NCBI RefSeq assembly: GCF_006974125.1
Contig: NZ_CP037858.1
Location: forward strand, 372,001-436,000
DNA from: Stenotrophomonas maltophilia
GTDB lineage: Bacteria; Pseudomonadota; Gammaproteobacteria; Xanthomonadales; Xanthomonadaceae
Direction: 5' to 3'
DNA length: 64,000 nucleotides
Below the pieces are notes generated by a model that had not been told where the DNA came from, ran no database searches, and worked only from the letters and a program-made list of their open reading frames with translations. Of the stretch, positions 25,658 through 37,341 are shown piece after piece (position 1 is the first letter of the stretch; each line of letters starts with the position of its first letter). The translations under genes and the position numbers were made by a program.

Positions 25658-28600
25658 TCAGAAGCGCGCGGTGACGCCGAGCTTCAGGGTGCGACCCGGG
25701 GCCGGCAGCGTGGACCGCGTGGCTGGATCGACGTAGTAGCGGTTGCCGAGGTTGCTGCCGACCAGCTCGACGCTGGCATGCTCGTTGAAGCGCCAGCGCG
25801 CATAGGCATCGACGGTGGTGATGTTTCCCCAGGTGAACGGCACGTTCTGCCAGAGCAGGCCGCTGCCACCGCTCAGCAGGCGGTCACGGTAGGCCTGCAG
25901 ATCAGGGTTCTCGTGCCGCTGGTAGTGCACGATGCGGCTGCCCAGTTCCAGGCGCTCATCGAACAGGCGCGTGCCCAGCGACCAGTTGATCGACAGCTTG
26001 GGAATGGCCTGGGTCAGCAGGTAACCACCGACGAAACCATCCTGCACGCAGTTCGGGACCAGGCCGCGGTTCGCGTCCAGGAGGACCGCCATGCTCTCGT
26101 CACACACCTCGTTTTCCAGCGTGCGGGTGATGCCCAGATCGGTGAAGAAGCGCCGGTTGTCGAAGCGCGCCTGCAGCTCGATGCCACGGATGGTCTGCTT
26201 GTCGATGTTGTCGAACAGGAAGTTGCCATCGCGCTCGATCACGTCACGGGTCTTGTGCACGTAGTACGCCAGCTTGACGTCGGCATCGGCGGTGTTGCCG
26301 AACAGGGCTGACAGGTTGTGCACGTAGCCCACCTCGTAGTTGTAGGCGTGCTCGGGCTTGAGCGCATGCAGCGGATTGAGGCTGCCGGAGAAGGCGATGG
26401 TGCTTTCGAACATGCTCGGGAAGCGCACCGCTTCGCTGTAACGCACGTAGGCACGGGCGGCCGGGGACAGGTGTGCAGTGGCCGAGAAGGTCGGCAGCCA
26501 GGCGTGGTCGCGGCGACGGCTGTTGCGACCATCGACCCGCTGCGACTGTACGCTGTTGCCGATGCTGCAGACCTGGTCGCTGCCGGCAAACACCGGCTGC
26601 ACGCCGGGAATGGCCGCCACTTCGCCATTGAGGCAGGGATTGCCGGCGCGGGTGTAGTTGCCATCGGCATCGGGCAGCCAGGGCCGCGTGTACCTGACCG
26701 GACGCGGCGTCTCGTACGGCGCCAGCAACGCACGGATGCTGTCATCGATGAACCAGCCCATGCCGCGCTTTTCCCATACGGCGCGACGTGCTTCCAGAGC
26801 GTCGATGCGGGCCTGCAGATTGGCCGGACGCGGCGGCAACTCGTTTACGGTGTACTGCGCTTCCTTGCCACCTACGCCCTTGGTCAGCAGCTCGGGGTGC
26901 GCCTCGAGGAAATCGTCGAAGGCCCAGTAGCGGCTGTAGCGCACGCCTGCATTGAGGGTGAGGAAGTCGACCGGCCGCCACTCCAGGGTGAGGTAGCCTT
27001 CGCCCTCCTGGCGGCGCCCGGCACGCGGGAACATGCGCCAGCCATCGGTGGTGCCGAAGTACGGATCGCCGGACCCCAGTTTCTCGTACTGCCAGTTGCC
27101 GCCCACGGTCAGGTCCAGGGTCGAATGCAGCGCGAAGCGGTTGCTCAGGATCAGGCCGGTGCGGTCGTTGCGTGCATTGGCCAGTGCGGTGTTGCGCAGG
27201 ATCGGGCTGGCGTCCGGATTCCATGCCGGATTACCCACCGCGAAGTTGGGAAAGCCGCCGGCGGTGTAGGTATCGCTTGCCGTTTCCGTGCGCCACAGGT
27301 TGGCGTACAGGTCCAGCCAACGACTGCCGGCGGGCTGGAAACGGTACTCCAGGTTCCACGCGTCCGAATCGACCCGGCTGAGCGGCCACTGGATGCGACC
27401 GTAGTCCGGGGCCGACAGGATGCGCGACGGCATGATCTCGCCGTAGTGCGACAGCGTGCGCCGCCAGGTCGCCTTCAACTGCTGGTCATCGTTGATCTGC
27501 CAGCTGCCCTTGACCAGCCAGGACTCCTGTTCGCTGGAGGTGTTGGGCACTTCATCGCCGGGCTTGAAGTAGCGCGCCAGCGTGGTGATGTAGTCGATGC
27601 CCTGGTACTCGAACTGCTCGCGCCGGTCCTGTTCGTAGTAGCCGCTGCCCTTGGTCCCGGAGAAGTAGTTGCCGCGCTTGCGCCACGCGTAGGCAGCCAT
27701 CAGGTCGACGTTGTCACCACGCACGCCCAGCGCCAGGCGCCAGGCCTGGTCCTCGCCATCGAAGGGATTGTTGCCACTGCGCGACTTCACGGGCACCACC
27801 AGGGTGCGGTCGTCGTAGGGTGAGTTCGGCGAGCCCTGCGGGAAGCCCGGCACGGTGCGGTAATCCTCGCCGGTGTGCAGCCGCGGCAGGCGCGGCGCCA
27901 CCGCGTTGCTGCTGCCTTCGATCTTCAGCTCCCCGCCGAAGCGCTCGCCGGCAGCGACGATGTCATCGACGTCGATGGTCTTGATCACCAGCGCGCCACC
28001 GATCCCGCTGTGCACATCGCGCACCAGCCCTGGCCCCTTGATGACCTGGATGCCACCAATCAGGTTGGGATCGATGTAATTGCGGTTGCTGACGCCGTTG
28101 TAGCCGCGCCAGACCGTGAGCGCCTGTTCGCCGCCGTCGATGCTGACCGGCACCCGCCCGGGCCCCTGGATACCACGGATGTTGACGTCCAGCGCGCCGC
28201 TGTTGCGCGCATCGCCACTGAACACACCGACCAGATCCTTGACCACGTCGGCCGGATTGGAGCCACGGTAGCGCTCCACCCGGTCGCGCCCCGAATACGC
28301 CGTGGTCAGGTCCAGCGCGAACACATCGTCGTAGCCACGCCGATCGCGGGCCTCACCCCCTTCCGACTGAAGGCGACCGGCCACGTCCAGTGTTTCGGTC
28401 ACCCGCACCCCTTCCCCCTCACCCGCCTCCGCTGCGGCCCGCAGGCTCCAGGTACCGTCCATGCCGCGCTGGGCACGCACGCCGCTGCCGCGCAACAGCT
28501 GCTGCAGCGCCTGCATCTGGCTGTACTCGCCTTTCACTGCACTGGAGCGGCGGCCTTCCACCAGGTCGCTGCGGAACACCACCTGCACATCGGCCTGGCG

Positions 28601-28780
28601 GCCAAAGGCGCGTACGGCATCAGCCAGTGGCTGCTCCGGAATGGTGTACTGGCGCACCGGCGCGACGATCGCCGGTTGCGCCTGTACGGCCGGCACCCAG
28701 GCCAGCGGCAGCAGAGCGGTGGAAACAGCCAGGGCCAGAACGGTGGCGCGACGATGACAGGCGGATGCCGTGGACGGCAT
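25658..28780 (-). CDS. TonB-dependent receptor with STN signalling domain
   Basis: This is an outer-membrane receptor of 1040 residues. The signal peptide covers about residues 1-34. A secretin/TonB N-terminal (STN) domain (about 42-115, YTIPEQPLADAVRAFGRQADVQVVF) talks to a FecR anti-sigma factor. Then come a plug (about 150-270, IRGIQGPGRVPVSIDGG) and a large 22-strand barrel ending KLGVTARF. The strong ribosome site GAGGAG precedes the ATG. Upstream on the same strand lie the FecR and sigma genes; downstream lie the hemophilin-like cargo and Slam. The receptor therefore probably imports the ligand delivered by the secreted protein and reports its binding to the sigma factor. The size is larger than FecA because of barrel loop insertions. 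Confidence 0.92.
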   Translation of the reverse strand: MPSTASACHRRATVLALAVSTALLPLAWVPAVQAQPAIVAPVRQYTIPEQPLADAVRAFGRQADVQVVFRSDLVEGRRSSAVKGEYSQMQALQQLLRGSGVRAQRGMDGTWSLRAAAEAGEGEGVRVTETLDVAGRLQSEGGEARDRRGYDDVFALDLTTAYSGRDRVERYRGSNPADVVKDLVGVFSGDARNSGALDVNIRGIQGPGRVPVSIDGGEQALTVWRGYNGVSNRNYIDPNLIGGIQVIKGPGLVRDVHSGIGGALVIKTIDVDDIVAAGERFGGELKIEGSSNAVAPRLPRLHTGEDYRTVPGFPQGSPNSPYDDRTLVVPVKSRSGNNPFDGEDQAWRLALGVRGDNVDLMAAYAWRKRGNYFSGTKGSGYYEQDRREQFEYQGIDYITTLARYFKPGDEVPNTSSEQESWLVKGSWQINDDQQLKATWRRTLSHYGEIMPSRILSAPDYGRIQWPLSRVDSDAWNLEYRFQPAGSRWLDLYANLWRTETASDTYTAGGFPNFAVGNPAWNPDASPILRNTALANARNDRTGLILSNRFALHSTLDLTVGGNWQYEKLGSGDPYFGTTDGWRMFPRAGRRQEGEGYLTLEWRPVDFLTLNAGVRYSRYWAFDDFLEAHPELLTKGVGGKEAQYTVNELPPRPANLQARIDALEARRAVWEKRGMGWFIDDSIRALLAPYETPRPVRYTRPWLPDADGNYTRAGNPCLNGEVAAIPGVQPVFAGSDQVCSIGNSVQSQRVDGRNSRRRDHAWLPTFSATAHLSPAARAYVRYSEAVRFPSMFESTIAFSGSLNPLHALKPEHAYNYEVGYVHNLSALFGNTADADVKLAYYVHKTRDVIERDGNFLFDNIDKQTIRGIELQARFDNRRFFTDLGITRTLENEVCDESMAVLLDANRGLVPNCVQDGFVGGYLLTQAIPKLSINWSLGTRLFDERLELGSRIVHYQRHENPDLQAYRDRLLSGGSGLLWQNVPFTWGNITTVDAYARWRFNEHASVELVGSNLGNRYYVDPATRSTLPAPGRTLKLGVTARF

Positions 28781-28870
28781 GGACAGGAACTCCTCAAGCG
28801 TGGCGGAACCACGGGCACATCCGGTGCCGGTGGCATGTCTGGCTTGAGGAGAAACGGTGTTTCGCTCTGG

Positions 28871-28884
28871 CTATACCTCTATAG
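28871..28884. promoter_or_regulatory. dyad in the promoter region of the STN receptor operon
   Basis: A perfect dyad CTATA-CCTC-TATAG lies 91 bp upstream of the receptor start, between the anti-sigma gene and the receptor. This is where a promoter for the ECF sigma factor or a repressor site is expected. Next to it, at about 28891-28907, is a GGGCAC/GTGCCC hairpin with flanking T-runs that could terminate plus-strand transcripts. Confidence 0.35.
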
Positions 28885-28962
28885 ACAGCGGGGCACTGCG
28901 GGTGCCCACGGTTTTTTCATGTTTTTTTCATCTGGCGGGCCGTGCGCTGCGCCGCAGGCACC

Positions 28963-29919
28963 TCACCACACCACCAGCACGCCACCGGGCAAGTGCTGCA
29001 CGCGCAGTCCCGCCTGTGCGGCCACCGCTTCAATAGCCGTCTCCGGCTGCTGCAGATGGAACAGGCCACTGACCCGTACGTCCGCGCCCTGCCCGCCCAG
29101 TACCCACACCGGTGCACGGCGGTAGCGCGCCAGATCGGCGATGGCCTGCGCGGCCGACCGGTCGTCGATCACTATCTCGCCACGCCGCCACGGCGCCAGG
29201 GTCTCGGGATCTTCCAGCTGCACCGGCTGCAGCCAGCGACCGTCACGGAACGTCCGTGCCTGCCCGGCATGCAGGCGCTGCACGCTGCCATCGCCGGGGC
29301 GCACGTCCACTGCGCCTTCGCTGACCCGGGTCATGACCGTGGTGTCCTGCATCGACACGCTGAAGGCGGTGCCGATGTCACGGACCAGGCCGCCCGCCAC
29401 CTCGACCTGGAACGGCCGCTGCTCATGCGCCACCTGGAACCAGGCCTGGCCGCGCAGCAGGCGCAGGTGCCGCTGCTGGCCATCGAACTCAACCGCCAAT
29501 GCGGTGCCCGCATCGAGTACGGCGGTGCTGCCGTCCTCCAGCTGCACCACGCGCGGTGCATCGCTGCTGCGCAGGTCACTGCGTGCCAGCAGCAGCGCGT
29601 GTGGCGCAGCGGCAACCATCAGCACCACTGCGGCGGCACTGGCCAGCAGCCACGGCAGGCGCCGACGCGGTGCGATCGGGCGCAACCCTTGGCAATCAGC
29701 CGTCAACCCGGGCAGCGCGGCCAGCACGTCGGGCCCGGCGGCATCCAACCCTTGCCAGAAGGCCTGCTGCTGGCGCCAGGCCAGCGCATGGCGGGGATCG
29801 GCCTGCAGCCAGCGCTGCAGGGTTCGTTGCTGGCGTTCCGGCAGCGGGCCTGCACTGCACTGGATCACCCAGCGCAACGCCTGCCTGGCCTGACGCGGCG
29901 AGGGTTCGGACGTGGTCAT
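28963..29919 (-). CDS. FecR-family anti-sigma factor
   Basis: This is a 318-residue inner-membrane regulator. The N-terminal cytoplasmic sigma-binding segment (DUF4880, about residues 8-55, ALRWVIQCSAGPLPERQQRTLQRWL) precedes one TM helix near 87-106. The periplasmic FecR beta domain follows (about 115-210, VQLEDGSTAVLDAGTALAVEF), then a C-terminal STN-like domain (about 240-318) that contacts the receptor STN domain. It lies between the ECF sigma gene (82 bp upstream) and the receptor. The ATG was chosen because the preceding frame has no family features. Known family members are cut on ligand binding to free the sigma factor. Confidence 0.9.
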   Translation of the reverse strand: MTTSEPSPRQARQALRWVIQCSAGPLPERQQRTLQRWLQADPRHALAWRQQQAFWQGLDAAGPDVLAALPGLTADCQGLRPIAPRRRLPWLLASAAAVVLMVAAAPHALLLARSDLRSSDAPRVVQLEDGSTAVLDAGTALAVEFDGQQRHLRLLRGQAWFQVAHEQRPFQVEVAGGLVRDIGTAFSVSMQDTTVMTRVSEGAVDVRPGDGSVQRLHAGQARTFRDGRWLQPVQLEDPETLAPWRRGEIVIDDRSAAQAIADLARYRRAPVWVLGGQGADVRVSGLFHLQQPETAIEAVAAQAGLRVQHLPGGVLVVW

Positions 29920-30001
29920 GGTTGTGGCCTGCCGCACCACGAACGGGTGCGCCTTCCTGTTGTGACAACGGCGGGCGTGATCTGCCCACGGCAATCGCCG
30001 C

Positions 30002-30505
30002 TCATCGATGCATTCCCTGCTGGTGCTGCTGGATCAACAGCGCCGCGCGCAGCACATGCTTGCCCACCAGGCTCTTGGAAATACCCAGCCGGGCGGCGAT
30101 TTCGCGCTCACTCAGGCCCAGGTAGCGGTTGAGCACGAAGCACTCGCGCACCTGGGCCGGCAGCGCGAGGATGGTCTGGGTGATCTCGCGCAGCTGCGCC
30201 TGGTCCAGCGCCTGCGCCTCGCCATCGCGACTGGCCTCGGCCATGTCGAGGGCGTACTCGGCCATCGCACGCCGCTCGCGGGCGTCGGACTGGCTGCGGT
30301 TGAGCGCGTGGTGGTAAGCCATCCGGTACAGATAGCCGCGCGGCTCCAGGATGGGCGGATCGCCGGGCACGCTGCTGGCCTTCAGGTACAGGTTCTGCAG
30401 GGTGTCCTCGGTACTGGCCGGGTCGAGATAGCGCGCGATGAAGCGAGACAACGCACGGCGCTCGCGGATCAGCAGCTCGACCAGCGCCAGGGCATTGGGA
30501 GACAT
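30002..30505 (-). CDS. FecI-type ECF RNA polymerase sigma factor
   Basis: This is a 167-residue ECF sigma factor. Region 2 spans about residues 10-80 (RFIARYLDPASTEDTLQNLYLKA, then PRGYLYRMAYHHALNRSQ). Region 4 is near 105-160 (LPAQVRECFVLNRYLGLSEREIAARLGISKSLVGKHVLRA). It groups with iron-starvation sigma factors. It is the first gene of the FecI-FecR-receptor-cargo-Slam run and would drive the receptor/cargo operon when the receptor is loaded. The start ATG (MSPNALALV) is taken; a TTG three codons earlier is an alternative. A TACAAT -10-like box lies about 60 bp upstream; no convincing Fur box is seen. Confidence 0.9.
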   Translation of the reverse strand: MSPNALALVELLIRERRALSRFIARYLDPASTEDTLQNLYLKASSVPGDPPILEPRGYLYRMAYHHALNRSQSDARERRAMAEYALDMAEASRDGEAQALDQAQLREITQTILALPAQVRECFVLNRYLGLSEREIAARLGISKSLVGKHVLRAALLIQQHQQGMHR

Positions 30506-30655
30506 AGGTGCCAAGGCCGGACCGGGGAATGATGGGCGTGATGGCGACGGTCCGAGCCGGAATTGTAGGCGTCCGGCCGCGATACCGCACCCCCGTTCAG
30601 CGACGTCGCCACAGGCAGGACCTTCGGCCTATGAAGATTTCGTGAAGGCGATGCT

Positions 30656-30673
30656 ATGTTATATCGTCACATT
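30656..30673 (+). promoter_or_regulatory. candidate Zur box upstream of the receptor/chelatase operon
   Basis: The 18-bp sequence ATGTTATATCGTCACATT has a left half ATGTTATA identical to the gammaproteobacterial Zur consensus, and a right half TCACATT that matches the E. coli znu-type half site. It lies 17 bp before the ATG of the TonB receptor, in an otherwise GC-rich spacer, so it would overlap the promoter or transcription start. Zinc repression of the downstream operon is inferred. No cobalamin riboswitch is recognised in this spacer. Confidence 0.55.
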
Positions 30674-30690
30674 CGTAGCGACCCCTTCCC

Positions 30691-32634
30691 ATGTCCCGTT
30701 CCCTCCCCGCCCGCTGCCTGTCCGGCGCGATCCTCCTTGCCCTGGCGCCCGCACTGGCAGCGGCGGCCGAAGCCCCTTCGCAGCTGGATCCGATCGTGGT
30801 GACCGCCACTGCCACCGATCGCCTGGCCAGCGACGCGCCCGCCTCCATCAGCGTGATCACCCGCGAGCAGATCCAGCTGCGGCCGGTGCTGGACCTGGCC
30901 GACGCACTACGCGGCAGCCCGGGCGTGACCGTGGCCGGGGTCGGCTTCGGTCGCCGCGGCATCCGCATCCGCGGCATGGATCCGGGCTATACGCTGGTGC
31001 TGCTGGACGGCCAGCGCGTCAGTGCGTCGGCCGATGCCATCGCCCACTCGGATTTCGATCTGGGCTGGCTGCCTGCCGCCGCGATCGAACGCATCGAAGT
31101 GGTACGCGGCCCGATGTCCTCGCTGTACGGATCGGAGGCACTGGGCGGCGTGATCAACGTGATCAGCCGCCGCGCCACCGACGATTGGCAGGGCAACCTG
31201 GTCTACAACGCCGGTGTGGTTGGCGGTGACCGCGGCGGCAATACCGCACAGGCCGGCTTCTATGCCGGCGGCGCGCTGCTGCCGGGCACGCTGGGCCTGA
31301 GCGTGTTTGCCGAACACCGGCAGAAAGACGCCACCCGCGATCCGACCGACGACCGGCTGGACGAACAGGAGGGCCGGCGGGTCAATACTGGCCGCGCGGT
31401 GCTTACCTGGACCCCGGACGCGCACCAGCGCATCGACCTGTCACACCTGCAGGGCAGCGAGGAGCGCCGCCGCCATGCGCTGCAGGCCGGCGCCGCACCC
31501 TACGTCTACGAGACCATCGACGACATCCGTCGCCGCCAGACCACGTTGAGCCACCAGGGCGAGTGGGACTGGGGGCAAACCCGGGCAAGTGCCTACCGTG
31601 CCACGCTGGACCGCGACAACCGTCGCGACCGCGGCGAGGCCTCGCGGCCGCAGCAGCTGACCGACCAGATCGTCGATGCACGCGCGACGGTTGCACTGGG
31701 TGCACGCCACCGCGTCAGCATCGGCGGCGAATGGCGGCGCCAGGAACTGGACGATGCTGCGGGTGCGCGCTCCGGCCATCTGCAGTCCGACCAGAGCGCG
31801 GTGTTCGTGCAGGACGAGATCCAGGTCAGCGACGCACTGTCACTGGTGTTCGGCAGCCGCGGCGACCGCCATCCCGAGTTCGGCTGGCACCACAGTCCGC
31901 GCGCCTATGCGGTGTGGCACGCCAGCGAAGCACTGACGATCAAGGGCGGCATCGGCAGCGGCTTCAAGGCGCCGAGCCTGAAGCAGCTGTCGCCGGAATA
32001 CTCCGCGGTAGGCGGCGGTGGGCGTTTCACCATTGTCGGCAACCCGCAGTTGAAGCCGGAGCAGAACACCAGCGCCGAGCTGTCGGTAGCCTGGCAGCAG
32101 CAACGCTGGTCGCTGCAGGCCACCGCCTTCCAGAACGACCTCAAGGACCTGATCCAGACCACCTGCGTGCGTGCCTGCGGCGTGCGCGGCCGTGAACTGC
32201 GCAACTACACCAATGTGGCCCGTGCCCGAATCCGTGGCCTCGAGCTGGCCGGTACCGCGCCGATCAGTGAGCACCTGTCTTTCGAGGCGAACTGGAGCTG
32301 GCTCGACCCACGCGACCGTCAGACCGACCAATGGCTGCCGGAGCGTCCGCGCCGTAGCGGTGCAACTGCGCTGAACTGGCAGCGCGGACCGCTGCAGGCT
32401 GCGGTACGTGGCGAGTACATCGGCCCACAGCAGCAGGTGGCCGGCAGCAGCCAGGTGACCCTGCCCGACTACTGGCTGTGGTCGCTGGACGCGCGCTGGC
32501 GCGTGACCGCGGCGGTGAGCGTGGTGGCCGGCATCGACAACCTTGCCGACAAGCGGCTGGACGAAACCGGCGCGCTGTACCCGTACCCGGAAACCGGCCG
32601 CTACGTGCATGCCGGCATCGAACTGGCCTTCTGA
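30691..32634 (+). CDS. TonB-dependent outer-membrane receptor (BtuB/HmuR-like)
   Basis: This is a 647-residue TonB-dependent receptor without an STN domain. The signal peptide covers about residues 1-25, the TonB box is DPIVVTATAT (about 32-41), and the plug has RRGIRIRGMDPGYTLVLLDGQRV and the IERIEVVRGPMSSLYGSEALGGVINVI signature. A 22-strand barrel ends VHAGIELAF. The best family relatives are BtuB/CirA/HmuR-type importers of metal complexes. It starts an operon with a CobN-like chelatase (2-bp gap), a proton-channel protein and DUF2149. A zinc-type operator lies just upstream. The cargo could be heme, another metallo-tetrapyrrole or a zinc complex; sequence alone does not decide. Confidence 0.92.
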   Translation: MSRSLPARCLSGAILLALAPALAAAAEAPSQLDPIVVTATATDRLASDAPASISVITREQIQLRPVLDLADALRGSPGVTVAGVGFGRRGIRIRGMDPGYTLVLLDGQRVSASADAIAHSDFDLGWLPAAAIERIEVVRGPMSSLYGSEALGGVINVISRRATDDWQGNLVYNAGVVGGDRGGNTAQAGFYAGGALLPGTLGLSVFAEHRQKDATRDPTDDRLDEQEGRRVNTGRAVLTWTPDAHQRIDLSHLQGSEERRRHALQAGAAPYVYETIDDIRRRQTTLSHQGEWDWGQTRASAYRATLDRDNRRDRGEASRPQQLTDQIVDARATVALGARHRVSIGGEWRRQELDDAAGARSGHLQSDQSAVFVQDEIQVSDALSLVFGSRGDRHPEFGWHHSPRAYAVWHASEALTIKGGIGSGFKAPSLKQLSPEYSAVGGGGRFTIVGNPQLKPEQNTSAELSVAWQQQRWSLQATAFQNDLKDLIQTTCVRACGVRGRELRNYTNVARARIRGLELAGTAPISEHLSFEANWSWLDPRDRQTDQWLPERPRRSGATALNWQRGPLQAAVRGEYIGPQQQVAGSSQVTLPDYWLWSLDARWRVTAAVSVVAGIDNLADKRLDETGALYPYPETGRYVHAGIELAF

Positions 32635-32636
32635 CC

Positions 32637-35600
32637 ATGCGCAGCGGGTGGACATGGCTGCTGCTCGGGTGGCTGATGCTTGCCGCATCGGCCCGTGCCG
32701 AGCCCGAACCCTTGCGGGTGGAGGTGGTCAGCAGCAGCTTCGTGTTGCCTGGCAGGATCGCCCGCCTGGATGCGCTGGGCGCGCCCGCAGGGGTGCGCTT
32801 CCAGCAGCGCGTGGTGGACCCGGCGGCCACGCTGCCCGCTGACTGGCCGGCAGGCGCCGACCTGGTACTGCTGGATACGCCGCGACCGACCGATGTCGAA
32901 CAGGTCATGGCGGTGGTCGACGGCCCCCTGCAGAAGGGCAAGGTGCCGTGGCTGCGCGTGGGCGGCGGTGCACCGGCCTCCGGCCACCTGCCCGCCGAGG
33001 TGGCGCGCAGGATCGCCGGTTACTACGGCAACGGTGGCGAGGCCAACATCCGCACGCTGGCGGCCTACCTGCAGGCGTGGCGCAGCGGTGCCGGGACCGA
33101 CGCACTGCCACTGCCCCAAGTGCTGCCGGTCACCGGCTACAGCACGGGCGGCAGCCAGTGGTTGGACACCCCGCAGGCGTTGCAGGCGCAGTGGCAGCAC
33201 CGCGATCAGGCGACATGGCCGAAGGTGGCCGTGCTGATCTCCGGCAGCATGCTCAGTGGCATGCAGACCCAGGTGCTGGACGCGCTGATCGAGGCAGGAC
33301 GCGCGCGCAGGATTGCGCTGTTCGGGGTCTGGTTCGACGCCGCCGCCGACAACGGCCTGCAGCAGGCGCTGCGCGGCATCGAGGTGGATGCGCTGGTCAA
33401 TCTGACCCATCTGCAGAACGGCAGCGCGCGTGCCACCGAGTTTTCCGCGCTGGACGTGCCGGTACTGCAGACACTGAACCATCGGCAAAGTGATGCCGAT
33501 GACTGGCGCGCGGCGAACACCGGCATCCCGATGGCCACGCTGGCGACCTTCGTCGCCGTGCCCGAAGCCTGGGGCGCCAGTGATCCAATCGTGGTCTCGG
33601 CCAATGCGCGCGGTGAACTGCAGCCGATTCCCGAACAGATCGATGCGCTGGCTGCCAAACTGCAGCGGCTGGCCGCGCTGCGCCACACCGCCGCGGCCGA
33701 CAAGCGCCTGGCACTGCTGTTCTGGAATGCGCCGGATGGCGAACGCAACCTGTCCGCCTCGCATCTCAACGTGCCGCGCAGCATCGAGGCGCTGCTGCCA
33801 CGGCTGGTACAGGCCGGGTATTCGACGCAGCCGGTGGATGAGACGACCCTGATCGAACAGCTGCAGGCGCTGCTCGGTGGTTACTACCATCCGGAGCGAT
33901 TGGACGCGCTGCTCGATGCCGGGTTGGCCGATACCCTGCCGGTGGCGGACTACCGCCGCTGGCTGGCCACCCTGCCCGCTTCGCGCCGCAACGAACTGCG
34001 CGCACAGTGGGGCGATCCTGCACACCACCCCGCGGTACGCCAGCGGCACGGACAGGCCGTGTTCGTGCTGCCGCGCCTGCGCCTGGGCAACCTGCTGCTG
34101 ATGCCGCAGCCGCCACGCGCGGGCCGCGTGGGCGAGGCCACCCACGATACGGCGTCGGTGCCGAGCCACTACTACCTGGCGGCGTACCTGTACCTGCGCC
34201 AGCAGTGGAAGGCCGACGCGCTGATCCACTTCGGCACCCACGGCACGCAGGAATGGACCCCGGGCAAGGATCGCGGCCTGTGGGCCGCCGATTATCCGTG
34301 GCTGGCGGTGGGCGAGCTGCCGGTGTTCTATCCGTACATCCAGGACAACGTCGGCGAGGCGATCCAGGCCAAGCGCCGTGGCCGTGCCGTGGTGGTCAGC
34401 CACCAGACTCCGCCGTTCGCACCGTCCGGGCTGTACGACGAACTGCGCGACCTGCACGCGGTGGTGCACGAACTGCAGCAGCTGGACCAGGGGCCAGTGC
34501 GTGATGCCACCGCCGCACGCCTGCGCACCCTGGCCACCGATAGTGGCATCGCCGCCGACCTGGGCTGGAGCGCGGTGGACATGCAGGCGCGCTTCGACAG
34601 CTTCCTGCCGGTGCTGCACGACCATCTGCATGAACTCGCCCGGCGCAACCTGCCACTGGGGCTGCATACCTTCGGCCAGCCGGCCTCGCCCGAGCACCGC
34701 CTGCTGATGGTGATGCAGCAGCTGGGTCCGGACTATCTGAAAGCGCTGGGCGAGGATCCGATGGAGGCCACTGCGGTGGACTACCGGCAGATCCAACAGG
34801 GCCTCGGCTATCGCACGCTGCTGCACCATCTGCGCGAAGGTGCGCCGATCAGCAGCGTCGCCAACCCCGATCTGCGCGCAGCGCTGCAGCATGCCGTGCA
34901 ATTGGATGCTGCTCTGGCCGATACGCAGGAGATCGAATCACTGCTGCACGGCCTCGCTGGCGGCTTCGTGCGGCCCGGCGCCGGCGGCGATCCGATCCGC
35001 ACGCCGGAACTGCGCAGCGGCCGCAACCTGTTTGCGTTCGAGCCGGACCGCATTCCCACCCGCGCAGCGTTCGACACTGGCGAGCTGGCCCTGCAGCAGC
35101 TGCTGCAGGCCTATCGTGATGATCACGATGGCCAGCTGCCACGCAAGCTCGCCATCAGCCTGTGGTCGAGCGAGGCGATCCGCCATCTCGGCGTGCTGGA
35201 GGCACAGGTGCTGCACGCGCTGGGCCTGCGCCCACGCTGGGACAGTGGTGGCAAGGTGATCGCGCTGGACATCGTGCCCGACGCGGAACTACAACGCCCG
35301 CGCATCGATGTGGTGATCCAGGCCACCAGCGTCTACCGCGACCAGTTCGATCCGTTCCTGCGACTGCTGGCTGGCGCCATCGAGCAGCTGGCGGCGATGC
35401 CGGCCTCGCCCGGCAACCCGATTGCCGGCAATGCACGGGACGTGCAGCAGCGCCTGCAGCGCGACGGCGTCCCTGCGGAGCAGGCGCAACGGCTGTCGCG
35501 CCTGCGCATCTTCAGCAATGCGCCGGGCGAATATGGCAGCGGCCTCAATCATGCCGTGCTGGCGCGCGGCGGCACGGCGGGCAAGGACGATGCGGCGCTG

Positions 35601-36545
35601 GCCAGCGGTTTCCTCGATCGCCTGCAGCACGGCTACGGCAGTGACGGTCAGGCCACCACCCTGCCCGGCGGCAACCTGTTCGCCGAACAGCTGCGCGGTG
35701 TGCAGGCGGCGGTGCTGTCGCGCTCCTCCAACACCCATGGTCTGCTCAGCACCGACCACCCCTTCGAGTATCTGGGCGGGCTGGCGCTGGCCGTGCGCCA
35801 CCTCGACGGCGCCAGCCCGGCACTCTACGTCTCCGACCTGCGCGAACCGGCACCGCGCACGCGTAGCACCGCACGCTTCCTTGCCGATGAGCTGCGCGCG
35901 CAGACGCTCAACCCGCAATGGATCGGTGCGATGCAGGCCGAAGGCTATGCCGGCACGCTGGAGGTACTGAAGAACGTCGACAACCTGTTCGGCTGGCAGG
36001 TGACCGCGCCAGACACCGTCCGTGCCGACAAGTGGCAGGCGGTGCATGACACCTTCGTGCGCGACAGCCGGCAGCTCGGGCTGGCGCAGTGGTTCGAGCA
36101 GCACAACGCCAGCGCGCAGGTGCAGATGATCGAGCGCCTGCAGGAAGCGATCACACGCGGCTACTGGCAACCCGATGATCGCACCCGTGCGGAGCTGCAG
36201 GCGCGGCTGCAACAGCTGCAGGCCTCGTCAGCGCCGGAACCGGCACCGCCGCAGGCACATGCCGGCTATGGGCTCGGCCGCGCGGCGGCCGCCACACCGG
36301 CATCCGCTGCTGCCGCCACCGCTGCCCAACAACCCGCCACCGTCGAACCGGCCGCCACCCCAGCGCCCAAAGTGCGAGGCCAGGTGATGCGGCGGGTACC
36401 GCCGCCGACGCCGCACTCGCCTGCCACGCACTGGGCACTCGCCGTGCTGCTGGGCCTGCTTGGCGCAGGCGCCGCGCTGCAGGCACGCCGCAACGCTCGG
36501 CGCGCCAGCCCTTCCCATTCCCCTTCCAACACGGCTTCCGCATGA
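32637..36545 (+). CDS. exported, membrane-anchored CobN/HmuS-like chelatase
   Basis: This is a 1302-residue CobN/magnesium-chelatase H-type protein. It differs from cytoplasmic cobaltochelatase CobN: it has an N-terminal signal peptide (WTWLLLGWLMLAASARA, about residues 4-20), a Pro/Ala-rich linker (about 1200-1255) and a C-terminal TM helix (WALAVLLGLLGAGAAL) with a short basic tail. The large domain should therefore lie in the periplasm. Family motifs are present: FGTHGTQEWTPGKDRGLW near residue 532, GELPVFYPYIQDNVGEA, and SNAPGEYGSGLNHAV near 959. CobS/CobT partners are absent here. Related HmuS proteins act on heme, and Pseudomonas relatives sit in zinc-controlled operons. It probably removes or inserts a metal in an imported ligand; direction and metal are unknown. 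Confidence 0.88.
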   Translation: MRSGWTWLLLGWLMLAASARAEPEPLRVEVVSSSFVLPGRIARLDALGAPAGVRFQQRVVDPAATLPADWPAGADLVLLDTPRPTDVEQVMAVVDGPLQKGKVPWLRVGGGAPASGHLPAEVARRIAGYYGNGGEANIRTLAAYLQAWRSGAGTDALPLPQVLPVTGYSTGGSQWLDTPQALQAQWQHRDQATWPKVAVLISGSMLSGMQTQVLDALIEAGRARRIALFGVWFDAAADNGLQQALRGIEVDALVNLTHLQNGSARATEFSALDVPVLQTLNHRQSDADDWRAANTGIPMATLATFVAVPEAWGASDPIVVSANARGELQPIPEQIDALAAKLQRLAALRHTAAADKRLALLFWNAPDGERNLSASHLNVPRSIEALLPRLVQAGYSTQPVDETTLIEQLQALLGGYYHPERLDALLDAGLADTLPVADYRRWLATLPASRRNELRAQWGDPAHHPAVRQRHGQAVFVLPRLRLGNLLLMPQPPRAGRVGEATHDTASVPSHYYLAAYLYLRQQWKADALIHFGTHGTQEWTPGKDRGLWAADYPWLAVGELPVFYPYIQDNVGEAIQAKRRGRAVVVSHQTPPFAPSGLYDELRDLHAVVHELQQLDQGPVRDATAARLRTLATDSGIAADLGWSAVDMQARFDSFLPVLHDHLHELARRNLPLGLHTFGQPASPEHRLLMVMQQLGPDYLKALGEDPMEATAVDYRQIQQGLGYRTLLHHLREGAPISSVANPDLRAALQHAVQLDAALADTQEIESLLHGLAGGFVRPGAGGDPIRTPELRSGRNLFAFEPDRIPTRAAFDTGELALQQLLQAYRDDHDGQLPRKLAISLWSSEAIRHLGVLEAQVLHALGLRPRWDSGGKVIALDIVPDAELQRPRIDVVIQATSVYRDQFDPFLRLLAGAIEQLAAMPASPGNPIAGNARDVQQRLQRDGVPAEQAQRLSRLRIFSNAPGEYGSGLNHAVLARGGTAGKDDAALASGFLDRLQHGYGSDGQATTLPGGNLFAEQLRGVQAAVLSRSSNTHGLLSTDHPFEYLGGLALAVRHLDGASPALYVSDLREPAPRTRSTARFLADELRAQTLNPQWIGAMQAEGYAGTLEVLKNVDNLFGWQVTAPDTVRADKWQAVHDTFVRDSRQLGLAQWFEQHNASAQVQMIERLQEAITRGYWQPDDRTRAELQARLQQLQASSAPEPAPPQAHAGYGLGRAAAATPASAAAATAAQQPATVEPAATPAPKVRGQVMRRVPPPTPHSPATHWALAVLLGLLGAGAALQARRNARRASPSHSPSNTASA

Positions 36546-37018
36546 ACGCGCTTGAATCCACGCTCTACGATCTCTCCCACCTGTTCCTCGCTCCGGTCCT
36601 GCTGCTCATCCTGCTGTCGCTGGCCTACGCCTTCCTCAGCTTCGGCGCCTTCCTTTGGGAAGGCCTGCAGCGCCGGCGCGGCCGCCACCGGCCCGAGCTG
36701 CTGGCCTGGCAGGCCCGCCACGGTGGCAGCAGTGACGACCTGGAACTGCATATCCTCAAGCGCCTGGAAGGCCTGCGCATCGTCTCGCGCACTGCGCCGA
36801 TGCTGGGCCTGGTGGCAACCATGATCCCGATGGGCCCGGCGCTGCTGGCGCTGACCCGCAGCGACGCGCAGGGCGTGGGTGAGAACATGGTGGTGGCCTT
36901 CTCGTCGGTGATCCTGGCCCTGGTGGCTGCCAGCCTGACCTATCTGGTGCTGACCGTGCGCCGGCGCTGGCTGCTGCAGGAACTGCGCATGTTCGAGCGC
37001 TTGCAGGAGGCGAACTGA
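36542..37018 (+). CDS. MotA/TolQ/ExbB proton channel family protein
   Basis: This is a 158-residue inner-membrane protein with three TM segments (about residues 15-40, 80-100 and 115-140) and the family pattern GLRIVSRTAPMLGLVATMIPMGPAL. It is shorter than ExbB/TolQ. The start overlaps the chelatase stop by 4 bases and the DUF2149 start overlaps its stop, so the three are co-translated. With the DUF2149 partner it would form an ExbB/ExbD-like proton-driven motor, either dedicated to the adjacent TonB receptor or energising the membrane-anchored chelatase. No local tonB gene is present in this operon. Confidence 0.87.
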   Translation: MNALESTLYDLSHLFLAPVLLLILLSLAYAFLSFGAFLWEGLQRRRGRHRPELLAWQARHGGSSDDLELHILKRLEGLRIVSRTAPMLGLVATMIPMGPALLALTRSDAQGVGENMVVAFSSVILALVAASLTYLVLTVRRRWLLQELRMFERLQEAN

Positions 37019-37341
37019 TGCGCTTCCTGGATGACGACGAAGCCGACGACCCGATCCTGTCGGTGGTGAACCTGATCGACCTGTTCCTGGTGGTCACCGG
37101 CATCCTGATGATCGTGATCGTGCGCAATCCGCTCAATCCATTCACCAGCCAGGACGTGACCGTGATCGAGAACCCCGGGCAGGCCAACATGCGCATCACC
37201 GTCAAGCAGGGTGAGGAACTGACCCGCTACCAGTCCACCGGCGAGATCGGCGAGGGTGGTGGGCTCAAGGCCGGCGTGACCTATCGGTTGCCGGACGGAC
37301 GCATGGTGTACGTGCCCGAGGGTGCTACCCCGGTCCAGTAG
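37018..37341 (+). CDS. DUF2149 protein (ExbD-like partner)
   Basis: This is a 107-residue protein with an acidic cytoplasmic N-terminus (RFLDDDEADDP), a single TM helix (about residues 17-37, VNLIDLFLVVTGILMIVIV) containing the Asp typical of ExbD/TolR proton pathways, and a periplasmic domain. DUF2149 genes regularly follow a MotA/TolQ/ExbB gene and a CobN-like gene, as here. It is the last gene of the operon. The TAG stop is the GTAG head of a SMAG hairpin, which may also end transcription. Confidence 0.85.
   Translation: MRFLDDDEADDPILSVVNLIDLFLVVTGILMIVIVRNPLNPFTSQDVTVIENPGQANMRITVKQGEELTRYQSTGEIGEGGGLKAGVTYRLPDGRMVYVPEGATPVQ

Follow-up and report, generated by a model that had tools for sequence, protein, structure and literature searches.

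A conserved Zur-box-like element and an exported CobN-family protein in Stenotrophomonas maltophilia: a candidate zinc branch of the HmuS/BtuS dechelatase module

Why would a zinc switch stand in front of a gene for a tetrapyrrole-type metal chelatase? The question is raised by a four-gene operon of Stenotrophomonas maltophilia located in the window analyzed here, a stretch of 64,000 nucleotides corresponding to positions 372001-436000 (C1) of the complete 4,554,224-bp genome. In this operon, a Zur-box-like palindrome precedes the genes for a TonB-dependent receptor, an exported protein of the CobN family, an ExbB-like membrane protein, and a DUF2149 protein. We propose, with chances that we judge to be about even, that this is a Zur-repressed zinc-starvation operon, the counterpart of PA1922-PA1925 of Pseudomonas aeruginosa, and that it represents a zinc branch of the HmuS/BtuS dechelatase module. 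The relevant features of the window are the following.

30651..30667, + strand: second Zur-like dyad, overlapping the first with a 5-bp offset, 12/16 consensus positions
30656..30673, + strand: Zur-box-like palindrome ATGTTATATCGTCACATT (17-bp core, 30656-30672), 13/16 consensus positions
30691..32634, + strand: TonB-dependent outer-membrane receptor, 647 amino acids (aa), Pfam Plug and barrel
32637..36545, + strand: CobN/Mg-chelatase family protein, 1302 aa, predicted exported and C-terminally anchored class I chelatase, PF02514 at 942 bits
32637..32699, + strand: chelatase signal peptide, residues 1-21, MRSGWTWLLLGWLMLAASARA, read by eye
34239..34241, + strand: His-535, equivalent of HmuS His-538, in an HFGTHG motif
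35754..35768, + strand: Asp-1040, His-1041, and Glu-1044, equivalents of HmuS Asp-1208, His-1209, and Glu-1212, in a DHPFE motif
36429..36482, + strand: chelatase C-terminal membrane anchor, about residues 1265-1282, from hydropathy
36542..37018, + strand: ExbB/TolQ/MotA-like membrane protein, 158 aa (HmuU equivalent), PF01618 at 28.7 bits (cut-off, 22.9)
37018..37341, + strand: DUF2149 protein, 107 aa (HmuV equivalent), PF09919 at 92 bits

A conserved Zur-box-like element precedes the operon

The original prediction, made from the sequence of this stretch, had called the four gene products a receptor, a CobN-like, an ExbB-like, and a DUF2149 protein, and these calls proved correct, with Pfam matches and coordinates in agreement. 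The junctions between the genes are tight (+2, -4, and -1 nucleotides from the receptor gene to the DUF2149 gene). The Zur consensus is ATGTTATAnTATAACAT, and we scored boxes as the number of matches at 16 informative positions of this consensus. The claim that a Zur-site-like element stands 17 bp before the receptor gene was borne out at exact coordinates, since ATGTTATATCGTCACATT matches 13 of the 16 positions and is followed, 17 bp downstream, by the receptor ATG at 30691. The best box in the S. tumulicola and S. rhizophila loci is ATGCTATGTTATAGCAT, whose start, ATGCTATGTTATA, is common to the second dyad of the window.

We then scanned the whole genome with this consensus. Palindromes with at most three mismatches occurred at five places in the 4.55-Mb genome, the window box being one of them, and a reversed control pattern occurred at one. 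A second box lies between a gene for a ZnuD-like receptor (144 bits to the solved ZnuD) and one for a MerC protein, and a third lies between genes for MerC and a CobW/COG0523 GTPase; ZnuD-like receptors, MerC, and COG0523 proteins are usual Zur targets. Of the two Fur-family genes, one matches Zur best among the NCBIfam models, at 125 bits and thus under the cut-off of 167; the box of the ZnuD-like receptor is about 6 kb away from it.

The remaining two boxes (C1:232921 and 241839, outside the window) flank a lasso-peptide-like cluster encoding asparagine-synthase and transglutaminase-like proteins, an ABC transporter, and an open reading frame resembling a TonB receptor, together with a candidate 55-aa precursor that has two His in its possible core. 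This cluster possibly makes a zinc-regulated, zinc-binding lasso peptide (zincophore); a literature search on zinc-regulated lasso-type clusters gave nothing on point among the matches listed, judged by title.

We next looked into the conservation of the operon. A contig scan with the window chelatase yielded 141 relatives, and the best 80 loci were analyzed; the chelatase of S. maltophilia MDMC339 is 98% identical in the best tblastn segment. ExbB-like and DUF2149 genes follow the chelatase gene in 78 of the 80 loci, the other two contigs ending too early, and a receptor gene is found upstream in 77 (72 similar to the window receptor and five of another, Pfam-confirmed receptor type). Boxes were counted up to 450 bp before the receptor gene, and four loci with an unreadable upstream region (L056, L059, L072, and L079) were dropped. 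A box of at least 12/16 precedes the operon in 62 of the 76 loci left, and one of at least 11/16 does so in 71, compared with 43 and 110, respectively, of 5,667 control windows from the same loci reaching 12 and 11. When 279 permuted palindromes were scored, the mean was 2.2 loci and the maximum 25. Given the rarity of the palindrome in the genome, the control windows, and the permuted palindromes, we rejected the idea that the box arose by chance.

In four Stutzerimonas loci (L026, L031, L052, and L057), the box precedes a small L31-like gene at the head of the operon. These head genes form one family, and that of L026, the sole one scanned, encodes ribosomal protein L31 type B (124.8 bits; cut-off, 86), which is the zinc-free type. 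A second sample of 398 genomes of the phylum, chosen independently of the operon, contained, besides the window's own, two operons near the window type (L189 and L190; chelatases 47 to 48% identical), with boxes of 14/16 and 13/16 and, in L190, MerC and CobW genes nearby. For other branches, we covered the 450 bp upstream of the cobN-like gene, where the operon need not start; of 31 loci, one (the AT-rich L126, at 12/16) reached 11 or more. Sequence and conservation give good support to the box and to the operon, and they also support a putative Zur control of it; binding data come from P. aeruginosa, where Zur gel-shifts the PA1922 promoter (PMC8531726).

The chelatase is predicted to be exported and belongs to the BtuS/HmuS branch

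CobN and ChlH are cytoplasmic and work with ATP-driven partners (the CobST and ChlID motors). The original prediction gave the window protein a signal peptide and a C-terminal anchor, and a topology check now supports export from sequence and hydropathy. The signal peptide has a crude hydropathy of 1.79, just under the cut-off of 1.9, and the C-terminal helix passes its cut-off (1.95 versus 1.6). Among branch sequences, some of which have uncertain starts or are cut (L033 ends at 188 aa), 57/81 pass at the N terminus and 75/81 at the C terminus, compared with one and none, respectively, of 15 cytoplasmic relatives.

The chelatase gene is the only PF02514 gene of the genome, and no CobT was found there in a search that was positive in one control genome (CobS was not searched for). 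The protein scores 1645 bits with the NCBIfam CobN model NF004644 (cut-off, 1248), a model that evidently covers the exported branch too. We built a tree of 109 sequences with the 15 cytoplasmic CobN/ChlH-type proteins as root and four cut branch sequences omitted. The window branch forms one clade (support, 0.97) of 78 sequences, including the CobN-like protein P0111 of P. aeruginosa, presumably PA1923. The clade is joined by six other exported proteins (1.0), then by one HmuS (1.0), and then by a group that we call type C (0.98). An AlphaFold2 model of residues 22-1200 (pLDDT, 91.8) has as its closest solved folds MtCobN (7c6o; TM score, 0.84) and HmuS (9d26; 0.80) and also matches ChlH (0.72). 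On these sequence grounds, the enzyme is a member of the BtuS/HmuS branch of the CobN/ChlH family and not a cytoplasmic CobN.

HmuS is reported to strip iron from heme, and its H538A variant shows no heme turnover (PMC12583661). We compared its active site with that of the branch; HmuS and the mature window chain are 26% identical. The residues His-538, Glu-577, Ser-1199, Asp-1208, His-1209, and Glu-1212 of HmuS site 2 are each kept in 80/80 readable branch sequences. In the cytoplasmic relatives, His-538 and Glu-577 are present in 15/15, His-1209 in 2/15, and Glu-1212 in 0/15. The Met-79 position of HmuS is occupied by Pro in 80/80 branch sequences, whereas His-254 is kept in 77/80, and the Met-rich insertion is missing (branch median of 75 aa with 1 Met, versus 241 aa with 24 Met in HmuS). 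The dechelation site is thus HmuS-like and the heme-specific site is not. Export, branch position, and active-site residues are all well supported by these comparisons. A canonical cobaltochelatase was ruled out by the lack of a CobT match, the sole PF02514 gene, export, the site-2 residues, and the position in the tree.

The ExbB-like/DUF2149 pair may power the chelatase

The original prediction had placed the ExbB-like and DUF2149 proteins in an energized metal-extraction module, and their genomic linkage supports this placement. DUF2149 is encoded by 18 genes in 17 of the 398 genomes, the window's own included. All 17 genomes have a PF02514 gene (134/398 do overall), and an ExbB-like gene is adjacent in 18/18 cases. 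In 17 of the 18 cases, the same 3.2 kb also contain a CobN-like gene; in the remaining one, such a gene is about 2.4 kb off. Residues P86, L88, G89, L90, T93, and P96 of the ExbB-like protein are invariant in 87/87 sequences, and DUF2149 consists of one transmembrane helix with an invariant N-x-x-D (N18 and D21; 87/87) followed by a predicted small beta domain.

HmuU and HmuV have been given the part of an ExbB-ExbD pair that assists the TonB receptor (PMC10100974 and PMC12583661), and the window pair might likewise energize TonB for the receptor only and be unrelated to the chelatase, an explanation to which we grant a probability somewhat short of even. It is opposed by the presence of a CobN-like gene near 18/18 DUF2149 genes and by loci that have a TonB set of their own beside the pair (TonB-ExbB-ExbD in the same gene cluster in L198 and in L159, a Trichlorobacter plasmid; TonB and another ExbB in L132 and L133). 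The window genome itself holds seven ExbD-family genes. DUF2149 and PF02514 are furthermore both present in Methanosarcina acetivorans, an organism without an outer membrane, where we recorded presence alone. Methanomicrobia also appear in a published table for HmuS and HmuV (PMC10100974), and two haloarchaeal plasmid copies that we inspected are canonical cob clusters. The linkage to CobN-like genes, which is well supported, the separate TonB-ExbB sets, and the seven ExbD-family genes make the pair look like a partner of the chelatase, which it may itself power.

We do not count DUF2149 as a proven ExbD homologue, since Pfam found no ExbD profile match and the structural model was poor. In L159 and L198, a gene for DUF2162, a predicted transporter, adjoins the pair; DUF2162 perhaps plays the role of HmuT and may be an inner-membrane metal permease.

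Receptor, neighboring genes, and zinc routes

The best solved relatives of the receptor are Cir (347 bits), PirA (185), FepA types (≤160), BtuB (111), PhuR (95), and ZnuD (28). Other routes for zinc might be provided by one ZIP transporter found in the genome or by its two MerC proteins, whose genes adjoin Zur boxes. We considered and abandoned a handover of the released zinc to ZnuABC, as the genome gave no ZnuA match.

Upstream of the operon and divergent from it, a set of genes for an extracytoplasmic function (ECF) sigma factor, FecR, and an STN-domain receptor occupies 25658-30514 (- strand) and is of the iron-type surface signaling kind. A LysR gene is located downstream of the operon and faces toward it. 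A simple scan detected no sigma-70-like promoter in 30480-30760.

A proposed mechanism and its alternatives

We prefer a reading in which periplasmic dechelation would supply zinc. When zinc falls, Zur would leave the box and the four genes would be expressed together. The TonB receptor would import into the periplasm a metal complex, most likely a zinc-tetrapyrrole, which the anchored chelatase would bind in an HmuS-type cavity between His-535 and His-1041. There the class I chelatase reaction would be run backwards, releasing Zn(II), and the ExbB-like/DUF2149 pair would act as a proton-driven motor dedicated to the chelatase, replacing the ATP-driven CobST/ChlID. The loss of the Met-79 ligand and of the Met-rich insertion would fit this scheme, since Zn(II) needs no prior reduction.

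The original prediction had left two options for the chelatase, stripping zinc from a porphyrin or cobamide-like complex or freeing heme iron. Zinc from a tetrapyrrole seems the better fit, because the operon has a zinc box in front of it and the chelatase has neither the HmuS heme ligand Met-79 nor the Met-rich insertion. That the operon instead harvests heme iron, with a proteobacterial HmuS whose Zur control is indirect and spares or feeds iron metabolism under zinc stress, appears unlikely to us. Such a role would accord with the site-2 residues shared with HmuS, with His-254, with a gene order like that of hmuYRSTUV (PMC10434189), and with the iron-type ECF/FecR/receptor cluster next door. 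It is difficult to reconcile with Pro at position 79 and the shortened insertion, with four operon genes that include neither HmuY nor HmuT, and with the conserved Zur boxes and their links to L31B, MerC, and COG0523. We assign a similarly low probability to cobalt handling, either by a cobaltochelatase or by an enzyme that extracts cobalt from corrinoids taken up by the cell, with Co(II) then able to replace Zn(II). The annotation of a cobN in P. aeruginosa, where a cobalt link of PA1922-PA1925 has been discussed (PMC13083405, PMC8531726, and PMC4542158), the NF004644 score, and the B12 clusters around members of type C, a sister exported branch, speak for cobalt. The export of the protein, the genome's lack of a CobT match and of a second PF02514 gene, and a site 2 that differs from those of cytoplasmic CobN and type C speak against it. 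The third alternative is free-zinc import by the receptor and the ExbB-like protein, with the chelatase serving as a zinc chaperone or inserting zinc into a tetrapyrrole. Reviews of P. aeruginosa have guessed that PA1922-PA1925 imports free zinc (PMC10393844 and PMC8456098). Yet a ZnuD-like receptor preceded by a separate box is already encoded in the genome, and chelatase, ExbB-like, and DUF2149 genes stay together despite another receptor type in five loci and none found in L161, so that we consider free-zinc import quite improbable.

Several observations weigh against periplasmic zinc dechelation. Zur control alone is no proof that the metal handled is zinc, and the box falls below 12/16 in 14 of the 76 loci; in L053, L060, and L065, such a box goes together with Met replacing His at the HmuS 254 position. 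A 12/16 site is also present close to the receptor gene of L191, a locus outside the branch (30% identity). L161, a branch member on a plasmid of Azospirillum brasilense Sp7, showed no site of at least 12 and no window-like receptor in a gene table that is incomplete; its chelatase module adjoins an iron-type ABC transporter. A gene with a 2Fe-2S ferredoxin domain is a further neighbor there. In four of six type-B exported proteins, D/Q replaces H/E at site 2, which weakens the D-H..E signature as a metal marker, and L132, one of the D/Q proteins, adjoins an HmuY-family gene. By its sequence, the window receptor appears nearer to Cir/FepA than to ZnuD or to heme receptors. The genome gave no match to the ZnuA family in a search that was positive in 11 of 14 control genomes, so that some other importer would have to take up the released zinc. 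As for the motor, the DUF2149 model is of low confidence (pLDDT, 67; helix 12-36), and the Pfam scan of this protein gave PF09919 only, with no match to the ExbD profile.

Implications

In P. aeruginosa, PA1922-PA1925 belongs to the operons that zinc starvation induces strongly (PMC4542158), yet its role is unsettled. Placement in a widespread Zur-controlled branch of the HmuS family gives this operon a concrete and testable biochemistry, namely, periplasmic release of zinc from an organic complex. It also offers a proposed answer to how a periplasmic chelatase is powered without ATP.

The contexts of other exported modules suggest that one extraction device serves several metals, the metals being read from the neighboring genes. 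HmuY is found in L162, and B12 genes are found in the type C loci L138 and L145 (gammaproteobacteria; CobN-like proteins of 1478 and 1495 aa), whose ExbB-like and DUF2149 partners are Pfam-confirmed in L138 and recognized by similarity or eye only in L145. In L160, a plasmid of Runella slithyformis, a CobN-like/ExbB-like/DUF2149 module and a receptor gene are flanked by hypF on one side and hypC-hypD-hypE on the other. A urease accessory gene accompanies them, and this may be a nickel version of the module. We tentatively suggest, while regarding it as less likely than not, a family of proton-driven extracytoplasmic dechelatases in which an exported CobN-like protein is coupled to an ExbB-like/DUF2149 motor that replaces the ATP-driven CobST/ChlID, with branches for iron (hmu), zinc (Zur), cobalt (type C), and perhaps nickel (Runella). 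Bacteria carrying the zinc branch would then consume zinc-tetrapyrroles during zinc starvation.

Comparison with known systems

Literature joining CobN, Zur, zinc, and TonB dealt, among the matches listed, mostly with P. aeruginosa, and otherwise with P. plecoglossicida infection and a cobalt/B12 review. Searches for BtuS with the Zur regulon found none, and those for zinc, coproporphyrin, and zincophores found nothing on point. The original prediction had called the combination of a zinc switch with a chelatase unexplained; the combination is not new, being of the PA1922-PA1925 type, but its role there is indeed still unsettled. Under its Zur site, PA1922-PA1925 likewise has a receptor, a CobN-like, a motor-type, and a fourth gene, which are induced 147-, 122-, 45-, and 56-fold in a znuA mutant (PMC4542158). 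PA1924 has been labeled an ExbD, whereas the gene at the same position in the window operon encodes an ExbB-like protein. Zur control of PA1922 has been called unique to P. aeruginosa within its Pseudomonas groups (PMC10393844), against which the wide conservation of the box found here, Stutzerimonas included, speaks.

BtuS, the NCBI name borne by the Azospirillum relative P0088, was predicted to function in metalloporphyrin salvage (Rodionov 2003, cited in PMC6460266), a prediction for which the available text of PMC6460266 states no zinc link. CobN and ChlH share fold and superfamily with the window chelatase and differ from it at the HmuS 1212 position, where none of the 15 cytoplasmic relatives has Glu. 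With ExbB-ExbD and TolQ-TolR, the pair has in common the ExbB-like core motif and, in DUF2149, a transmembrane helix with an invariant Asp, but DUF2149 falls outside the ExbD profile, and for its soluble part a small beta domain is predicted (low confidence).

A further likeness is to HmuS and the hmuYRSTUV operon of Bacteroides thetaiotaomicron, with which the window system shares the class I chelatase fold, export, the anchor, the site-2 residues, and the ExbB-like and DUF2149 partners. HmuV/DUF2149 has been held to be diagnostic of heme operons (PMC10100974), a view against which the Zur-associated branch speaks. The two systems differ in their control, which is by iron in Bacteroides, whereas a Zur box precedes the window operon, and in their components, as the window operon comes without HmuY or HmuT and its chelatase carries Pro in place of Met-79 and no Met-rich insertion.

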